Shown here piece by piece: positions 21,431 through 30,198 of a stretch of DNA of 64,000 bases (positions are counted from its first letter, which is position 1; every line of letters begins with the position of its first letter). The DNA is from Sphaerobacteraceae bacterium (lineage in GTDB: Bacteria > Chloroflexota > Chloroflexia > Thermomicrobiales > Thermomicrobiaceae). Position numbers and translations under genes: made by a program. The notes beneath the pieces were generated by a model. The model was not told where the DNA came from and made no database searches. It saw only the letters and a list, made by a program, of their open reading frames with translations. The DNA is taken from assembly GCA_007695115.1 (NCBI GenBank), contig REEK01000132.1, positions 1-64,000 of the forward strand, read 5' to 3'.

Positions 21431-22106
21431 GTGGTCACTTCTTTCCGGTCTCTCCTCCGCACCGGAAGATCGCGACATCACGATCCCCAACCGGGCACTC
21501 CGGCGCAGTAAATCAACAGCCTCGCGTGTCGTGTCCGAATCGGTGTACCTCCTTTCCGGAGAGGGGCCGCATTCACCACGTGATTAGCGATCAGACAAGT
21601 ACAGAATCATCGTTCACTCTGCTGCAATATGATGATCACCTTTTCTCCAGATTCAACAGGAGGGTGCGACCATCAATCCTGTAGCGCACCGCTCCTGAAC
21701 GAGCGATCCGTTAGAGCGGAGCGACACTCGCTGCACACGTGCAACGGCTGTCAAAGCGTGGTGCTGACTGGATTTTTGGTACGTATCAGTTTGTTTAACA
21801 CCTCAAGCAAAATATGTCAACCTCAGGGGCCGAAAAGCGCCATAATTTGCGGAGCTACTCAGGAAAGTCGCGAAAATTCCCACCGATGCAGTACAGTTAC
21901 CGGCAATCGTCCGTACGGCGGAACCGATGGGTCTGGCGCGATGTACCATTACTGCTATTACGTTCGCGCCCACGCTGGACCCGGGTTCTGCAACACAGGA
22001 ACTCGTTGTGCAGTAATACGTATCAATGAGTTGAGTGGTGGCTATTGTGACAACTGACCCCGGTGCGGTGATCAGCACCGCGGTAAGCGAATCGGGTGGA
22101 GTAAAC
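21431..22106. other. Divergent gap, about 675 bases, no recognised feature
   Basis: This gap lies between the broken binding-protein gene (-) and the IDI-2-like gene (+). Short open frames lack ribosome binding sites. I looked for a riboswitch in the AT-richer stretch 21780-21960 and did not recognise one. Confidence 0.5.
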
Positions 22107-23156
22107 GTGCCAAGACAACGTCCTGTCCGGGGATTGCCGATCTGGGAGCAAATTACGCTGCTGCCGAATCCGCTACCTGAAATCGATGAAAGTCATGTCG
22201 ATCTCAGATGCCGCGTTCTCGCACACAATCTTTCGATGCCGGTCATTATCGAGCCGGATGGTTCACGCAGCTCGGCTCGACCGATCGCGCTGGAGAGACT
22301 TGCCGCAGCCGCTGCACGCCACGGCGCGGTATTCAGCCTCGGAGACCTCCAGCCAGCGTTCGACAAGCCGTCCGTGTATAGCGAACTCAAGACAATCCGG
22401 GACGCCCACCCGGAGCTGGTGATGGTCGCCGAGCTGCCGGCCAGTCGTCTGATTCCACAACCTGATACACCATTGCTGGAGCTCCAGCAGGTGCAACGGG
22501 CGGTGGTCGACCTCGGACTGCACGGGCTGCTCATCAACCTGAACGGCATTCAGCAGTCGTTCAAGAGTCGCTATGGCGCGACATCAGCCGGAACACTCCA
22601 GATGCTGGAAGAGCTCTGTCAGCTCATGGAAATCCCGGTGATTGCCCGTACCCTGACGGGGATGCCCAGGATGCTCTGCCGGATGATGATCGAGCGCGGA
22701 GTATCGGCCGTGATGGTCGGTGGAGCCGAAGTCGTGGATGACTGGTTGAGAGAGAATCGCCCCACTCAGGGAGAGCTCGCTGAACGCTATCGCCAGAAGC
22801 ATGAAGCGTTTGCCGGTTGGGGATTGCCGACGGTGGCCGCAATCCGGATGCTCCGTGGAGTTGGTATCCCGATCATCAGCGATGGCCGGATCGATACTGG
22901 GCTTGATGCCGCAAAAGCAGTGATCCTGGGAGCCGATCTGGTTGGGTTCAAACTGGCGGGAAGCCGTTCCGGTGAAGACAGCGACGAAGCGATCGAGCAC
23001 GATATCGCCAGTTTCACCGCTGATTTCCGGACGGCGATGTTCCTCAGTGGGGCAGCAAATCTGGTGACACTGCCGCAAATCCCGTTCGTTGCCGTCGGGG
23101 AAACCCGAGAATGGCTGGAAGCCGCTGAATCACTCTGGAAACAGGATCAACACTGA
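22107..23156 (+). CDS. FMN-dependent TIM-barrel protein, divergent type 2 IPP isomerase homologue
   Basis: The 349-residue protein has the flavin phosphate-binding end of the IDI-2/alpha-hydroxyacid-oxidase fold: GIPIISDGRIDTGLDAAKAVILGADLVGF. Its middle section follows IDI-2 in order, with INLNGIQQSFKSRYG where IDI-2 has HLNPLQE, AVMVGGAEVVDDW, and FAGWGLPTVAAIR. The catalytic Gln is kept, but the neighbouring Glu that binds magnesium in IDI-2 is Gln here, and the usual N-terminal RK-x-EH region is absent. I therefore do not call it an isomerase outright. GTG 22107 has GGTGGAG five bases upstream; the frame is open from GTG 22035, which is the alternative start. It converges with the anti-sigma gene. 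Confidence 0.7.
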   Translation: MPRQRPVRGLPIWEQITLLPNPLPEIDESHVDLRCRVLAHNLSMPVIIEPDGSRSSARPIALERLAAAAARHGAVFSLGDLQPAFDKPSVYSELKTIRDAHPELVMVAELPASRLIPQPDTPLLELQQVQRAVVDLGLHGLLINLNGIQQSFKSRYGATSAGTLQMLEELCQLMEIPVIARTLTGMPRMLCRMMIERGVSAVMVGGAEVVDDWLRENRPTQGELAERYRQKHEAFAGWGLPTVAAIRMLRGVGIPIISDGRIDTGLDAAKAVILGADLVGFKLAGSRSGEDSDEAIEHDIASFTADFRTAMFLSGAANLVTLPQIPFVAVGETREWLEAAESLWKQDQH

Positions 23157-23169
23157 GCCTTAGCCAGAC

Positions 23170-23442
23170 CTAGCGAGGCTCTTCAGGGTCTCGCTTGTGG
23201 CAAAGACGGTCGACTAGCGCTTCCTCGAACGAAGCACTCGGTTCAGCGGGTGTCACCGATCGATAGGCAACCACCGCACGAGTCAGCTGATCTTCAGCCT
23301 CGTGGCAGACCGGGCATATCTCGAGGTGCTGCTCCACTTGCTCGACCAGTTCCGGATCCGGGTTGTCACCATCACATTGCTGAATCAGAGCTTCCAGCTC
23401 TGAGCATCTCGTCTTCTGAGTAACAGATTTCTCACCTGTCAT
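23170..23442 (-). CDS. Zinc-binding anti-sigma factor (ZAS/RsrA-like)
   Basis: This 90-residue cytosolic protein has the zinc anti-sigma motif QHLEICPVCH (H-x3-C-x2-C, about residues 39-46), with upstream cysteines in RCSELEALIQQC. The layout is that of RsrA/ZAS proteins that hold an ECF sigma factor and in some cases release it on thiol oxidation. There is no membrane segment, unlike sensors of envelope stress. Its ATG overlaps the sigma-factor stop by four bases (ATGA), the standard coupled arrangement. The partner is therefore the sigma factor at 23439-24071. Redox sensing is plausible but not shown. Confidence 0.88.
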   Translation of the reverse strand: MTGEKSVTQKTRCSELEALIQQCDGDNPDPELVEQVEQHLEICPVCHEAEDQLTRAVVAYRSVTPAEPSASFEEALVDRLCHKRDPEEPR

Positions 23443-24071
23443 TGGGAACCCGTACCTTTCGGTGGCGCAGCATCGACGTAACCAGCGAGGTCCTTGCGTA
23501 AGGCCAGTCGCGCCCGGTGCAATCGCACCTTCAGCGCGCTCTCGGAGATCCCCAGCGTTGCAGCAGCGTCATGTGTTGACATGCCTTCGATATCCCGCAA
23601 TACGAAGGCGATTCGCAGAGATTCCGGTAGTCGCTCAATCGCGGCAGACATCCGGTCGAAGAGTTCAGCACCGAGAACCTGCTGGCCCGGATCCCGGGCG
23701 CCGCTCGAGACCGATTGCCAATTGCTCTCCGGCCCATCGGCGATCACGCCTTCGATGTCGTCGGTTGTGACGGACTTCCGGGCACGCAATCGCATCAATG
23801 CGGTGTTGATGACGATCCGGTGAAGCCAGGTCCCGAGTCCACTCTCGCCCCGAAACGAATCAATCCGATCACAGGCACGAATGAACGCCTCCTGCAAAAC
23901 ATCTTCGGCCTCGTCGGCATCTCCCATCAACTGACCTGCCAGGCGCAGAAGACGCGGAGCGTAATATTTCAGCAGGCAGGTGCACGCCATGCGTTCACGT
24001 TGCCGCAGCCCGTGCAGCAACTCACTCTCATCGTCATACACCTGCAGATCGATATCCCAGGGTTTCTCCAT
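23439..24071 (-). CDS. ECF sigma-70 factor
   Basis: The 210-residue protein has region 2 (KYYAPRLLRLAGQLMGD to EAEDVLQEAFIRA, then GLGTWLHRIVINTA) and region 4 (LPESLRIAFVLRDIEGMSTH with helix-turn-helix AATLGISESALKVRLHRAR). No region 1 or 3 is present, so it is an ECF-type sigma factor. The start ATG 24071 overlaps the stop of the SulP gene by one base (TAATG), and its own stop overlaps the anti-sigma start. The three genes are thus translationally coupled, an uncommon partnership between a sulfate-type carrier and an ECF system. Target promoters are unknown. Confidence 0.92.
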   Translation of the reverse strand: MEKPWDIDLQVYDDESELLHGLRQRERMACTCLLKYYAPRLLRLAGQLMGDADEAEDVLQEAFIRACDRIDSFRGESGLGTWLHRIVINTALMRLRARKSVTTDDIEGVIADGPESNWQSVSSGARDPGQQVLGAELFDRMSAAIERLPESLRIAFVLRDIEGMSTHDAAATLGISESALKVRLHRARLALRKDLAGYVDAAPPKGTGSQ

Positions 24072-25870
24072 TACGCCTCGTTATCTCTCTTCAACGTCAT
24101 CTTCGCCCCGAACGGTTCATTGGCTGGAAGTTTCTGATTGATCGCCGCCACGGCTGCATTTACCGTCAGATGAGTCCGATCTGGCCCGATCATCTGCATC
24201 AACAGCGTCCGGCGCAATCGTTCCAGTACCGTTGCCTTGAATCCTGCCAGATGCAGTGTCACCCCTGCTGACGAAAGCTGCAAATTGAGTTCCTCGAGCG
24301 TCTCAAGTGCCGAGGCATCGATATCGTTGATGGCAGTGCCAACCAGTACCAGGTGGTCCATCTCCGGCTGGCTATGCAGGCGCGACGTCACCACATCCTG
24401 CAGGCGCTGGGTGTTCGCGAAATAGAGGCTCTCGTCGACACGTAGCAGAAGCACGCGAGGATCAACAGTGGTGGAGTGGCGATGAGTTTCCCGATAAACA
24501 TCGCTGCCGCGTATGAGTCCCAGTTCCACGATGGCCGGGTGGCTGGTTCGCCAGAGGTAGAGCCCGATACTCGAGAGGATCCCCGCGATGATCCCCAGTT
24601 CCACGCCAATCGTCAGGACGGCAACGAAGGTGATGATCAGCGTCAGCGCGTCGGCCGGTCGGTACGACCACACTCGCCGGAAGGTCGTCGTCTCGATAAG
24701 CCCGGCCACGGCAACAATCACAATTGCTGAAAGCGTTGCCCGCGGGAGATAGAAGAACAGCGGCGTCAAAACGAGTAGCGATGTCAAGACGATTCCGGCC
24801 GTGATGATCGACGCCATACCGGTTTTCGCACCGGTCGAATAGTTCAGAACCGAACGACTGAAACTCCCGGTAACCGGAAATCCACCGCCGAACGTTGCCC
24901 CGATGTTCGCCGTTCCAAGTGCCACAAGCTCCTGGTCCGGATCAATACGTTCTCGCTCCCGGCTCGCCAGTGACTTGGCAATCGATATGCTCTCCATGAA
25001 CCCGACGAGGCTGATGAGAATGGCGGCGGGAATCAGCGCCTGAACCTGGGAAAGCTCAATCAATGGCAACGATGGCAATGGCAGACCGGATGGCACTGCG
25101 CCCACTACGGTAACGCTGGAGCGCTCATCGAGCGAGAATCCCCAGACCACCACCGATGCAGCTGCCACCGTCAGAAGTGGGCCGCTACGGGCAAGGAAAT
25201 TTGCCGGCCCGGCCGGAAAGCCGAGCGCTTCGAGATGTCCTCGTGCCAGTTTCTGAAAATACAGAAGCGCCAGAAGGCTGGAGACGCCGATCACCGTGGT
25301 GGTGAGGTTGATCGTTTCGAACGCGCCGCCGATCTCGATCATTTGTCCCAGAAAGGTATCGGATCGTCCAGCTGCCAGGCCGAACAAGTGAGCCAGCTGA
25401 GACGCGCCGATGATCAACGCGGCGGCGTTGATGAAGCCGGACAGAACCGGGTGGCTCAGAAAATTGACCACAAAGCCAGCCCGTAGCAACCCGAGAACGA
25501 TCTGGATAACGCCGACCATCAGCGCAAGGATCAGGGCCAGCGTGATGTACTCCTGAGTGCCCTCTGCGGCGAGCGCACCGACGCTGCTGGCCGTAAGCAA
25601 TGCAACGATGGCTACCGGCCCGATCGCCAGCGCCCGACTCGTTCCCATCAGGCCGTAGATCACCAGCGGGATAATGCTGGCGTACAGACCGGCCTGTGGC
25701 GGCAGGCCCGCCAGCATGGCATAGGCCATTCCCTGGGGAACCAGCAACACCGCCACGATGATCCCGGCGATGAGATCTCCAGAGAACTGTTCCCGGGTAT
25801 AGCGAGGTATCCAGCCAACTGCGGGGAACCATCGCTCGAGGGTAGCGCGGGAGAAGCGAAATCGTTCCAC
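24071..25870 (-). CDS. SulP-family anion transporter with STAS domain
   Basis: The 599-residue protein starts with the SulP signature DLIAGIIVAVLLVPQGMAYAMLAGLPPQAGLYAS, has about 10-14 transmembrane segments, the conserved VGFMESISIAKSLASR and GGGFPVTGSFSRS motifs, and a C-terminal cytosolic STAS domain (about 470-590) with INDIDASALETLEEL. SulP proteins carry sulfate, bicarbonate or other anions. It begins at GTG 25870 with no strong binding site, and heads the operon with the ECF sigma and anti-sigma genes. A very similar paralogue precedes it on the same strand (26019-27785). The neighbourhood of sulfur enzymes favours sulfate. Confidence 0.93.
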   Translation of the reverse strand: MERFRFSRATLERWFPAVGWIPRYTREQFSGDLIAGIIVAVLLVPQGMAYAMLAGLPPQAGLYASIIPLVIYGLMGTSRALAIGPVAIVALLTASSVGALAAEGTQEYITLALILALMVGVIQIVLGLLRAGFVVNFLSHPVLSGFINAAALIIGASQLAHLFGLAAGRSDTFLGQMIEIGGAFETINLTTTVIGVSSLLALLYFQKLARGHLEALGFPAGPANFLARSGPLLTVAAASVVVWGFSLDERSSVTVVGAVPSGLPLPSLPLIELSQVQALIPAAILISLVGFMESISIAKSLASRERERIDPDQELVALGTANIGATFGGGFPVTGSFSRSVLNYSTGAKTGMASIITAGIVLTSLLVLTPLFFYLPRATLSAIVIVAVAGLIETTTFRRVWSYRPADALTLIITFVAVLTIGVELGIIAGILSSIGLYLWRTSHPAIVELGLIRGSDVYRETHRHSTTVDPRVLLLRVDESLYFANTQRLQDVVTSRLHSQPEMDHLVLVGTAINDIDASALETLEELNLQLSSAGVTLHLAGFKATVLERLRRTLLMQMIGPDRTHLTVNAAVAAINQKLPANEPFGAKMTLKRDNEA

Positions 25871-26018: not shown

Positions 26019-27785
26019 TCACTCGTCAGACGAAGACCGCGCCTGCTGGATCGCATTGACGGCGTCGGCCGTCGTCAGATGGATACGGTGGGAACCTATC
26101 AGCTGCATCAGGTGGGTATGCTGCAGCCGATCCAGAATTGGTCCCTTGAACGCGGCCAAATGAGTATGAACCCCGGCCAGCTGAAGCCGGATCGCCAGCT
26201 CTTCCAGCGTCTCCAGCGCACTGGTGTCGATCGAATTGATCGCTGAGCCAACCAGCACCAGATTGCTGAGTTCGTCTCTCTGCGCCACGGCATCGAGAAT
26301 CGTCTGTTCCAGTCGATTGGCATTCGCGAAGTACAGGTTCTCATCGACCCGGATGATCAGGATCGCGGGATCGACATCAGTACTGTGACGGCGCACGTTC
26401 CGAAAGATCCCGGTTCCAGGAATACGGCCAAGTTCGGCGGTATGCGGCTGGCTGGTATGCCAGAGAAAGAACACGATGCTGGTGACGACTCCGGCTGCGA
26501 TGCCGATTTCGATCCCCATCACCAGGACCGTAATAAAAGTGACCAGCAGCGCGACGACATCTGGTCGATTGTAGGCCAGTGCCCGGCGCAGGGTTCTGGT
26601 CTCCAGCAATCCCAGCACCGCCACGAGAACGACCGCCGCCAGGGTGGCCCGGGGCAGGTAGGTGAACAGTGGCGTCAGCACCAGTACGGTGAGCAGAACG
26701 ATCGCCCCGGTGAAGATAGAGGCCATGCCGGATCGGGCTCCGGCAGAATCGTTCACCACCGAACGTGAAAGGCCACCGGTAACCGGAAAACCTCCAGAGA
26801 ATGCGGCACCAAGGTTCGCTGCTCCAAGCGCCACGAGCTCCTGATCGGGCTCGATCTTCTCCCGTTTCCGGCTGGCCAGGGTCTTGGCAACCGAGACGCT
26901 TTCCATGAATCCGACCAGGCTGATGACGAACGCAGACGGAAGCAACTGGAGCAAGACATCCGGCCCCAGGTCCGGCATCGTCAGTCCGGGCAACCCACTC
27001 GGAATTTCCCCGGTGATGGCGATGCTGGCGTTGCGATCCAGACCAAAGATCCAGACGGCCAGTGTGGCTCCAGCCACCGTGAACAGCGTTCCAGCCCGGG
27101 CGATATGTCCAGCAATCCCCCGTGAGATCCCCGCCGCCGTGAGATGTGGAGTTGCGTAGCTCTTGAAATAGAGCAGGATCATCAGACTGATCAGGCCGAG
27201 GAGTACCGTTGGAACATGCAGATCAGCAATATTCTGAACCAGCGACCAGGCCTGCTCGACGAACGTATCTCCCGGGATATCGACACCTAGAAAGTGCCTT
27301 GCTTGCGAAGCCATGATCACCAGCGCCGCGGCGTTGATGAATCCGGAAAGCACCGGATGGCTGAGAAACGCGACCAGAATGCCGGCCCGCATGAACCCCA
27401 TACCGACCTGGATCAACCCGCTTAGCAGCGCCAGCGTCAGCGCCAGGGTGAGGTAATCGGCACTTCCTTCTTCGGCAAGTGGAGCAATCGTGGTGGCCGT
27501 CATCAGCGAGATGATCGCCACCGGCGCCACGGACAGGGGCCGTGACGTGCCCATCAGTCCGTAAATAACGAGGGGAACGATCGATGCATACAATCCAGCC
27601 TGGGGAGGGAGACCGGCCAGCATGGCATAGGCCATCCCCTGTGGCACCAGCATGACTGCCACAATGATCCCGGCGATGAGATCGCCCGTCAGTTGTTCAC
27701 GCGTATAAGAGGGAAGCCATTCGAGTGCGGGCACCAGGCGTTTCAGGTGCCGGGTCCATCGAGATGACGAGTCACGGTTGTTCAC
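26019..27785 (-). CDS. SulP-family anion transporter with STAS domain, paralogue
   Basis: This 588-residue protein is collinear with the neighbouring SulP protein: DLIAGIIVAVMLVPQGMAYAM, LVGFMESVSVAKTLASRK, GGFPVTGGLSRS, and a C-terminal STAS domain with INSIDTSALETLEEL. The pair looks like an old tandem duplication. I choose GTG 27785, which has AAGAGA upstream and aligns with the paralogue's start; an alternative GTG at 27836 would add 17 residues without a visible binding site. About 150 bases separate it from the downstream SulP gene, so read-through is possible. Substrate is probably sulfate by context, but bicarbonate cannot be excluded. Confidence 0.92.
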   Translation of the reverse strand: MNNRDSSSRWTRHLKRLVPALEWLPSYTREQLTGDLIAGIIVAVMLVPQGMAYAMLAGLPPQAGLYASIVPLVIYGLMGTSRPLSVAPVAIISLMTATTIAPLAEEGSADYLTLALTLALLSGLIQVGMGFMRAGILVAFLSHPVLSGFINAAALVIMASQARHFLGVDIPGDTFVEQAWSLVQNIADLHVPTVLLGLISLMILLYFKSYATPHLTAAGISRGIAGHIARAGTLFTVAGATLAVWIFGLDRNASIAITGEIPSGLPGLTMPDLGPDVLLQLLPSAFVISLVGFMESVSVAKTLASRKREKIEPDQELVALGAANLGAAFSGGFPVTGGLSRSVVNDSAGARSGMASIFTGAIVLLTVLVLTPLFTYLPRATLAAVVLVAVLGLLETRTLRRALAYNRPDVVALLVTFITVLVMGIEIGIAAGVVTSIVFFLWHTSQPHTAELGRIPGTGIFRNVRRHSTDVDPAILIIRVDENLYFANANRLEQTILDAVAQRDELSNLVLVGSAINSIDTSALETLEELAIRLQLAGVHTHLAAFKGPILDRLQHTHLMQLIGSHRIHLTTADAVNAIQQARSSSDE

Positions 27786-28142
27786 GAATTCTCTTTCTCC
27801 ACCAGGAAATCCTGTTTCGGTCGGCTCGGTTTCCACTCATTTGATGCCCGAACAGGTCCGCCGGTTACACGTCGCACGTCATTCGGGCGGCACAGATGTC
27901 GCGCGAAATCCGACCGACCCTGATGTAACCACGTTGCGGTGCAATGCATCGAACATTCAGTGAGCGAAGAACGGCGCATCGAAATCAGGATCACACAGGA
28001 TGATGTAACCGTTTCTTTACCGCGTGCATCAAACGATCAGTTGCGGCAGAACGCCAGTCGCACCGATTGAACGCGCAGTAGATGTCCGGAGCGAGCGCTC
28101 CGGCAGAAATTGGGAAGAAACGCACGAACTCATGGAGGTTCA
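27786..28142. other. Divergent gap between the SulP and rhodanese genes
   Basis: This gap holds the promoters of two divergent sulfur-related genes. The string GATGTAACC occurs twice (about 27916 and 28000), which could be a regulator or ECF -35-like site, but two copies are weak evidence. No gene is seen. Confidence 0.45.
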
Positions 28143-28730
28143 ATGACTGCTACGACACAGCTTCCAGCTTCGGTCTCACCAGAACAGGCCACCGAGCTGA
28201 CCAGCCAGGGCGCCCGGATACTCGACGTTCGCACGACCGGCGAGTTCGAGTCGGTCCACATCCCGGGCAGCTACAACGTTCCGCTCGATCTGCTCTCGGA
28301 GCATCGGTCAGAACTGACAAGTTCAGTCGACCAGCCAGTGATTCTGGTCTGTGCCAGCGGAATGCGCGCCAAGCAGGCCGATAACGCCCTGCGAGACGCA
28401 GGACTGGAATCGATAACGGTGCTGGAGGGCGGGATCAACGCCTGGGAGCAGCGTGGTCAGCCGGTCGTCAAAGGCCAGCAGAAGTGGTCTCTGGAGAGAC
28501 AGGTACGTCTCGTGGCTGGCTCACTGGTAGTTGCAGGGGCCGTGGGTGGCTTGTTTGTATGGCAACCACTGACACTACTCTCACTTTTCGTTGGCGGAGG
28601 CCTGGCATTTGCAGGAATCACCAACACATGCGGCATGGCGATGCTGTTGGCCAAGCTCCCCTATAACCGGGGGCAGGCATGCGACGTTCGCCAGGTCATC
28701 ACCGAACTGTCCGCCGAGGCTCGCTCCTAG
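28143..28730 (+). CDS. Membrane-anchored rhodanese (sulfurtransferase) with DUF2892-type tail
   Basis: The 195-residue protein has an N-terminal rhodanese domain (residues about 8-100) with catalytic Cys70 in VCASGMRAKQA. Two membrane helices and a conserved end, ITNTCGMAMLLAKLPYNRG, as in DUF2892 proteins, follow. It would move sulfane sulfur at the inner face of the membrane. The start ATG 28143 is set by the binding site GGAGG. The CstB-like gene starts 34 bases downstream, so the two form an operon for persulfide handling; rhodanese-DUF2892 proteins often sit with sulfide/persulfide oxidation genes. Confidence 0.9.
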   Translation: MTATTQLPASVSPEQATELTSQGARILDVRTTGEFESVHIPGSYNVPLDLLSEHRSELTSSVDQPVILVCASGMRAKQADNALRDAGLESITVLEGGINAWEQRGQPVVKGQQKWSLERQVRLVAGSLVVAGAVGGLFVWQPLTLLSLFVGGGLAFAGITNTCGMAMLLAKLPYNRGQACDVRQVITELSAEARS

Positions 28731-28764
28731 ATACCGAGCAAGTCACACTCAGAAAGGATCGAAT

Positions 28765-30198
28765 GTGATTCTCCGACATCTCTACCACGACGATCTGGCA
28801 CAGGCGAGCTATCTGGTCGGGTGTGCAGCAACCGGCGAGGCACTCATCGTTGACCCGAACCGCGATATTCAGCAGTACATCGATCTTGCCGCACGCGAGG
28901 GTCTCAAGATCACGAAAGTCACCGAGACGCACATCCACGCCGATTACGTCTCGGGTGCCCGTGAACTCGCCGACGCAACCGGTGCCCAGCTCTTCCTGAG
29001 CAAAGAGGGAACCGACGACTGGCAATACGGCTTTGCCAAGGAATCAGGCGCTGAGCTCATCGGCGAGGGTGATGTGATCACCGTTGGCAATATCAAGGTC
29101 GACGTTCTTCATACACCCGGACATACGCCTGAGCACATCTCCTTTCTGGTCACCGATACAGCCGGTGCCGATAAACCGATGGGGATCTTTACCGGAGACT
29201 TCGTCTTCGTTGGCGATGTTGGACGACCGGACCTTCTGGAGAAGGCCGCCGGATTCGCCAACACCATGGAAGATGGCGCCCGGCAGCTGTACCACTCGCT
29301 GGAGCGATTCAAGAAGCTCGAAGACTTCGTCCAGATCTGGCCTGGTCATGGAGCCGGCAGTCCGTGTGGCAAAGCGCTCGGCGCCGTTCCGCAGTCAACC
29401 ATCGGATACGAACGCCTGTTCAATCCAGCACTGCAATTCAACGCTGAACAGGACTTTGTCGACTTCATCCTCGATGCCCAGCCGGAACCGCCGGTCTATT
29501 TCAAGCAGATGAAGCACGTCAACAAAGTCGGACCCGCCCTGACCCGGGAGCTCAACACCCCGATGCAGGTCGGAATCGATGCGATCGAACCGGCACTGAC
29601 GGCCGGTCAGCCGATCGTCGATCTCCGGCCCGCCGATCAGTTCGCCAGGGGACACATCCCTGGAACGATCAACATCGGTTGGGCAAAGGGCTTCGTTACC
29701 TGGGCCGGCTGGTTGCTTCCGTTCGACCGACCGTTCCACGTCATCGCCGATCCGCAGAGCATCGACGAGATCGCTCAAGAGCTGAGAATGATCGGTCTCG
29801 ATACGCTGGAGAACTTCTTTGCACCATCGATCATCGATGAATGGAAGGCCGCCGGGCACGAGCTGGCCACCATCGAACAAGTCACAGTGGATCGTCTCGA
29901 CGAGATCGGCGATTACCAGGTAGTCGACGTCCGGGGGATCACTGAGTTCGAAGAGGGCCATATCCCCGGTAGCCGGAACCTTCACCTGGGCTACGTCGGC
30001 GAACAGCTCGACCAGGTACCCAGTGACAAGCCGATTGTGTTCCAGTGCCAGACGGGTCGGAGATCATCAATCGCAGCGAGTGTTGCCGCCGCTCATGGCC
30101 GAAACGACATCTACAACCTTGTCGGTGGTTTCAGCGCCTGGGAGAAGCAGGGCTACCCCGTCGAAACGTCTGAGAAGGCTACCGCCGCAACATCCTGA
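28765..30198 (+). CDS. CstB-like persulfide dioxygenase-sulfurtransferase (MBL + two rhodanese domains)
   Basis: The 477-residue protein has an N-terminal metallo-beta-lactamase fold of the ETHE1 persulfide dioxygenase type: His56, His58 and Asp60 in THIHADYVSG, His120 in HTPGHTPEH, and Asp145 in FTGDFVF. A central rhodanese-like domain (about 275-365) lacks the active-site Cys. A C-terminal rhodanese (about 375-470) has Cys428 in QCQTGRRSS. This order is that of staphylococcal CstB, and Cys201 in GSPCGK falls where CstB also has a functional Cys, as I recall. It would oxidise persulfide to sulfite and thiosulfate. GTG 28765 has AAAGGA upstream. Confidence 0.9.
   Translation: MILRHLYHDDLAQASYLVGCAATGEALIVDPNRDIQQYIDLAAREGLKITKVTETHIHADYVSGARELADATGAQLFLSKEGTDDWQYGFAKESGAELIGEGDVITVGNIKVDVLHTPGHTPEHISFLVTDTAGADKPMGIFTGDFVFVGDVGRPDLLEKAAGFANTMEDGARQLYHSLERFKKLEDFVQIWPGHGAGSPCGKALGAVPQSTIGYERLFNPALQFNAEQDFVDFILDAQPEPPVYFKQMKHVNKVGPALTRELNTPMQVGIDAIEPALTAGQPIVDLRPADQFARGHIPGTINIGWAKGFVTWAGWLLPFDRPFHVIADPQSIDEIAQELRMIGLDTLENFFAPSIIDEWKAAGHELATIEQVTVDRLDEIGDYQVVDVRGITEFEEGHIPGSRNLHLGYVGEQLDQVPSDKPIVFQCQTGRRSSIAASVAAAHGRNDIYNLVGGFSAWEKQGYPVETSEKATAATS

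Follow-up and report, generated by a model that had tools for sequence, protein, structure and literature searches.

The ECF sigma factor/ZAS anti-sigma factor pair described here is, in our assessment, likely to regulate the detoxification of reactive sulfur (sulfide, persulfide and polysulfide) in Chloroflexota; that is, judging from its gene neighborhoods, promoter-like motifs and conserved residues, the pair is probably the switch for sulfur detoxification in this phylum. The window (i.e., the whole stretch of DNA analyzed, 64,000 nucleotides of a Sphaerobacteraceae bacterium contig) carries the pair at the end of an apparent minus-strand operon of the order SulPa-SulPb-ECF sigma-ZAS (27836-23170), from which a rhodanese/YgaP gene and a CstB-like gene diverge (28110-30198). 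The relevant features are as follows:

23170..23442, minus strand: ZAS-type anti-sigma factor of 90 aa (ligand pattern and RsiW profile match)
23439..24071, minus strand: ECF sigma factor of 210 aa with C30, C32 and C67 in sigma-2 (Pfam/NCBIfam sigma-70 domains)
24071..25870, minus strand: SulP transporter b with Sulfate_transp and STAS domains (TIGR00815, 479 bits against a cut-off of 380 bits; PF00916, 369 bits)
26019..27836, minus strand: SulP transporter a, first gene of the operon, with a promoter motif just upstream (TIGR00815, 477 bits)
27843..27869, minus strand: predicted sigma-dependent promoter of the SulPa-SulPb-sigma-ZAS operon, TGTAACC-N15-GCATC(AAA)
27924..27950, plus strand: predicted sigma-dependent promoter, distal, of the rhodanese genes, TGTAACC-N15-GCATC(GAA)
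28004..28030, plus strand: predicted sigma-dependent promoter, proximal, of the rhodanese genes, TGTAACC-N15-GCATC(AAA)
28110..28730, plus strand: rhodanese with a YgaP-like transmembrane domain (PF00581, 68 bits; PF11127, 38 bits)
28765..30198, plus strand: metallo-beta-lactamase with two rhodanese domains, a CstB-like persulfide dioxygenase/sulfurtransferase (domains and PDB matches)

An initial annotation of this DNA had placed a SulP transporter, an ECF sigma factor and a ZAS in one minus-strand operon with overlapping stop and start codons, and the domain matches and gene coordinates bear this out: the SulPb stop and the sigma start share TAATG and the sigma stop and the ZAS start share ATGA, overlaps that suggest translational coupling of these last three genes. 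The same annotation had missed the first SulP gene and the divergent sulfur genes, and since the other SulP gene stands directly upstream, the SulP at 24071-25870 is not the operon leader it was taken to be. The GTG called as the start of SulPa is only a few bases 3' of the predicted -10 (GCATCAAA; 27834-27869, minus strand), and hence translation probably begins at a later codon. On the plus strand, the GGAGG just upstream makes the ATG at 28143 the likely start of the rhodanese/YgaP gene, and the CstB-like protein, 477 aa long when counted from the start used in its orthologues, has its best solved relatives in PDB 3tp9 (E=2e-144) and 3r2u (E=1e-106). Converging on the ZAS gene is a gene (22035-23156, plus strand) for an FMN protein that resembles type-2 isopentenyl-diphosphate isomerase, scores 139 bits with TIGR02151, below the cut-off of 281, and has counterparts of 83-99% identity in three relatives of the genus (L087, L088 and L089).

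The sigma factor consists of sigma regions 2 and 4 only, with the domains Sigma70_r2 and Sigma70_r4_2 well above cut-off (PF04542, PF08281) and AF2 helices that fit an ECF (group 4) protein of 210 aa, and it falls in a monophyletic clade (support 100/100) so far found only in Chloroflexota. The ZAS of the window scores below the Pfam/NCBIfam thresholds and was recognized by its H-X3-C-X2-C core with an upstream fourth ligand (C13-X25-H39-X3-C43-X2-C46), all four positions being invariant in 7/7 orthologues, together with the match of a profile of these orthologues to the anti-sigma factor RsiW (5wuq, E=1.2e-5). Most other adjacent ZAS proteins show the same ligand pattern, and inspection of the alignment revealed no hydrophobic or transmembrane stretch in the ZAS proteins of 77-95 aa.

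Side-by-side reading of the intergenic regions of relatives revealed a bipartite element, TGTAACC-N15-GCATCnAA, whose strict form occurs three times between the two divergent operons, once facing the SulP operon and twice facing the rhodanese genes. This form is largely confined to sigma-bearing genomes among 61 relatives, and across the class (158 genomes) it was detected in 36/57 of those with the sigma vs. 7/101 of those without it (odds ratio 23, p=3.6e-14). As a control, the motif read backwards gave 8/57 vs. 13/101 (p=0.81); these Fisher p values ignore the relatedness of the genomes and thus overstate independence. Variants account in part for the 21/57 sigma-bearing genomes from which the strict motif is absent. 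A PWM built from the sites of families f1 and f2 had 0 matches at a score of at least 15 in 300 kb of random windows. Beyond this locus, the window's own genome has a single strict site, which precedes a short ORF and an SQR-like gene; that is, one motif precedes both the rhodanese-dioxygenase pair and SQR, the arrangement expected of a regulon. The genomes of genus g36, which we take to include Chloroflexus aurantiacus and C. aggregans, carry the element, in slightly varied forms that escaped the strict class-wide pattern, ahead of a protein-disulfide-oxidoreductase-sigma-ZAS operon in 8/8 inspected loci; the CstB-like persulfide-dioxygenase gene nearby is without it. A different conserved block (GAGATAGTATAAGC ... 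GTTGGCGCCAA) precedes the latter gene (L213-L216, L220, L222, L223 and L225), which suggests a second regulator.

Autoregulation, as proposed in the initial annotation, is supported by the TGTAACC-N15-GCATC element upstream of the whole operon and not by the GGGAACC that had been read as an ECF -35. The latter letters are present (25937-25931, minus strand) but do not match the bipartite element, have no matching -10, are absent from the SulP-SulP junction of the diverged relative L088 and, as a 7-mer, are readily expected by chance; hence, we rejected them as an autoregulatory -35.

The genes that follow the motif define a candidate regulon. Among 72 sites drawn from the class and its relatives, with the first recognized gene within 500 bases taken as the target and identities checked on representatives, 55 could be assigned to a sulfur or thiol gene, to the gene of a TsoY- or SBF-type membrane protein or to that of the sigma: rhodanese (12), CstB-like (8), SulP (6), SQR (6), protein-disulfide oxidoreductase (6), sigma (5), SBF-type transporter (4), DUF302 (3), TauE (2), thioredoxin reductase (2) and TsoY family (1), with the sigma, TsoY and SBF targets not themselves being known sulfur or thiol enzymes. 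No recognized target was found at the other 17/72 sites. The TsoY-family gene (NF047644, 521 bits), in L249 (G091:C121), offers a lead on the role of TsoY. The SBF/ACR3-like transporter genes under the motif are those of L266, L267, L268 and L283, and in L268 and L283 the gene is followed by a large gene resembling an RND-type pump. Between the DUF302 and sigma genes of L020 (2137-2482), a palindrome (GACTTCCGAAGTC / GACTTCGGAAGTC) is repeated several times.

Gene neighborhoods point in the same direction. Core sulfur/thiol genes flank 36/63 loci of the orthologous sigma, compared to 0/20 windows of 15 kb drawn at random from these genomes and 0/69 loci of other ECFs, a linkage test that is not fully blind because the core set was partly defined from the loci themselves. 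A phylum-wide sample of 20 new loci is a cleaner test: a CstB-like persulfide-dioxygenase gene is found in 8/10 loci whose sigma carries all three cysteines, in 0/9 loci with at most one of these cysteines and not at the one C-V-C intermediate. No core sulfur gene was seen within 6 kb in 33/73 three-cysteine loci, in some because contigs end (the ends of MAG contigs hide some neighbors).

The SulP-ECF-ZAS order, which the initial annotation had suggested looking for in other Chloroflexota genomes, is conserved in 5/5 intact loci from two genera of the window's family and was seen at no other locus of our set; SulP was accordingly dismissed as a universal partner of the sigma, being in the operon within this family only. 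Outside the family, the sigma clade adjoins persulfide-dioxygenase/rhodanese, SQR, DUF302, TauE or protein-disulfide oxidoreductase genes. Since the SulP order is limited to one family and other sulfur genes take its place elsewhere, SulP appears to be one of the exchangeable components of a regulon for sulfur detoxification and not a sensor input. In the table of loci, TauE and SulP never occur together in one locus, a pattern compatible with, although no proof of, interchangeable export of the sulfur product.

An unexpected feature of the sigma factor concerns its cysteines. C30, C32 and C67 of sigma-2 are invariant in 63/63 class orthologues, whereas other ECFs have the C30-x-C32 pair in 0/79 cases and a cysteine at position 67 in one, with mostly aromatic residues at positions 30 and 67. 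C30 and C32 start one helix (27-49) and C67 ends another (52-68) in the AF2 model (mean pLDDT 73.5), and the two sites may face each other. Across 88 sigmas, sulfur neighbors occur with 40/73 of those that have the three cysteines vs. 0/15 of those without the full set (p=3.6e-5). Presence of a ZAS was discarded as a predictor within the three-cysteine set (25/41 with vs. 15/31 without, p=0.34); that is, 31 three-cysteine sigmas are without a recognizable adjacent ZAS, and 15 of these are still beside sulfur genes. A quick tree implies one change in the three-cysteine trait, 16 in ZAS and 10 in the sulfur neighborhood. Because the trait changed only once, its association with sulfur neighbors represents one evolutionary event from which cause is not separable, and we do not take it as proof of cause. 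Nonetheless, the three cysteines are kept through the repeated absence of ZAS, which makes an on-board sensor worth considering. It is conceivable, albeit as a tentative idea that we would bet against, that the sigma itself senses reactive sulfur, with a C30/C32/C67 site (a persulfide/polysulfide bridge or a metal) gating it and the adjacent ZAS being dispensable. Alternatively, the loci without a recognizable ZAS may rely on one encoded elsewhere in the genome or on a neighboring ZAS that has degenerated, of which L191 and L225 are examples. Two further arrangements were observed. Five loci of family f9 (L184 6539-7120, L185 1737-2393, L186, L187 and L194) have a tandem second sigma from this clade, which is paired with a ZAS of its own, lacks the three cysteines and directly adjoins the three-cysteine sigma, and L322 (7105-7836 and downstream) has a C-V-C/C variant sigma followed by a glutaredoxin-like gene in place of the ZAS.

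The signal to which the pair would respond (sulfide/persulfide, sulfite or general disulfide stress) is read from the targets, and the alternatives can be weighed on the same grounds. Streptomyces SigR-RsrA pairs a sigma factor with a cytoplasmic ZAS that has C-X25-H-X3-C-X2-C ligands and includes thiol-redox genes among its targets; the type of ZAS and, presumably, the ligand spacing are the same as here, although promoter and regulon differ. A general response to disulfide (thiol-oxidative) stress of this kind, in which the sulfur genes would be part of a thiol-repair regulon, would also account for family f6, where thioredoxin reductase and protein-disulfide oxidoreductase genes either follow the motif or belong to the operon. 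We nevertheless regard it as unlikely, given that sulfane-sulfur genes make up nearly all of the recognized targets in the window's family and in f2, f7, f8 and f30, and that a thioredoxin-reductase-like gene (TrxB) flanks, at the threshold used, 0/63 orthologue loci vs. 31/69 loci of other ECFs. Sulfite as the signal has a precedent in the sulfite-activated ECF26 sigmas RpoE1 and RpoE4 of Sinorhizobium meliloti, which are also autoregulated (PMC3511301, PMC6527743, PMC6180224), and the SulP and TauE proteins could be sulfite exporters. However, the recognized targets would produce sulfite, not consume it, no sulfite oxidase was recognized among the motif targets that were annotated (a part of all targets), and both the S. 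meliloti promoter (-35 GGAAT, -10 CGTC; PMC6527743) and the transmembrane ECF26 anti-sigmas (PMC6180224) differ from TGTAACC-N15-GCATC and a ZAS without a transmembrane segment, so that a sulfite signal seems distinctly unlikely. Judged by these two features, membership in ECF26 was rejected.

It is also conceivable that another regulator uses TGTAACC-N15-GCATC as its operator, with the sigma being only a co-regulated neighbor, since co-occurrence does not prove recognition and seven genomes have the motif with no sigma detected. Yet the motif tracks the presence of the sigma and consists of two conserved blocks at a fixed spacing upstream of genes, as -35 and -10 elements do, with a -35 that resembles the GTAACC of Caulobacter SigF (PMC3511200), and we find this explanation very hard to credit. 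The initial annotation had tied the pair to anion supply or sulfur redox state; the link to sulfur chemistry is strongly supported, while the anion-supply part is not. That is, a stress regulon coupled to anion supply through SulP uptake could explain the SulP-sigma-ZAS order in the five intact loci of the window's family, but most orthologous loci have other sulfur genes and no SulP, and where SulP is found here there are two of them and the intergenic promoters are common to the persulfide genes. We consider this coupling extremely improbable. Hence, we favor the hypothesis that the pair controls reactive-sulfur detoxification.

The closest functional parallel is the cst operon of Staphylococcus aureus (tauE-cstA-cstB-sqr), which is controlled by CstR, a CsoR-type repressor (PMC5480029), and whose gene content closely resembles the targets found here (CstB-like persulfide dioxygenase-rhodanese, sulfurtransferase, SQR and TauE-type exporter). 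The term sigma factor does not appear in a 2022 review of bacterial reactive-sulfur sensing, which names CstR, SqrR, BigR, PigS and FisR among other regulators (PMC9774590). CstR, SqrR, BigR and FisR are repressors or activators of the CsoR, ArsR or Fis families, whereas the regulator predicted here combines an ECF sigma and a zinc anti-sigma; no CsoR- or ArsR-family match was found on the contigs with the locus or SQR, such matches in the genome being on other contigs. Among ECFs, RpoE1/RpoE4 are alike in linking a sigma/anti-sigma pair to inorganic sulfur stress and differ in having sulfite oxidase targets and alpha/beta-proteobacterial hosts. Caulobacter SigF-NrsF has a small regulon that includes sulfite oxidase and DoxX and is induced by chromate and cadmium (PMC3511200), but its -10 is CGAA after N16, compared to GCATC after N15 here, and NrsF is a membrane protein. 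The cst-like targets, together with these differences in promoter and anti-sigma from the sulfite ECFs and SigF, lead us to predict an ECF/ZAS system running a persulfide-type regulon, a task performed by unrelated repressors in well-studied bacteria.

The favored hypothesis can be phrased as a working model. In resting cells, the ZAS would hold the sigma; sulfide-derived sulfane sulfur, or related thiol oxidation, would then modify the cysteines of the ZAS, and perhaps those of the sigma, setting the sigma free. The freed sigma would recognize TGTAACC-N15-GCATCnAA promoters, as their co-occurrence suggests, and, in line with where the motifs are placed, would activate the SulP-SulP-sigma-ZAS operon to which it belongs, the rhodanese and CstB-like genes that diverge from it and the SQR gene elsewhere in the genome. 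From what is known of these families, SQR would make persulfide, rhodaneses would carry it, the dioxygenase would convert it to sulfite or thiosulfate, and SulP (or TauE in other lineages) would move the product across the membrane.

Chloroflexota include sulfide-oxidizing phototrophs. Sulfide sensing in the phylum is apparently undescribed in the papers searched (few of them from subscription journals), nor did these yield any report connecting an ECF sigma with sulfide, persulfide, sulfane sulfur or rhodanese. The results reported here provide a candidate regulator, a concrete promoter motif and a list of targets across the phylum, all of which are directly testable. Further, a sulfur sensor may be built into the sigma factor itself, as the invariant set of three cysteines hints. 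If the proposed role is true, sigma factors would join the known classes of sulfide/persulfide regulators.
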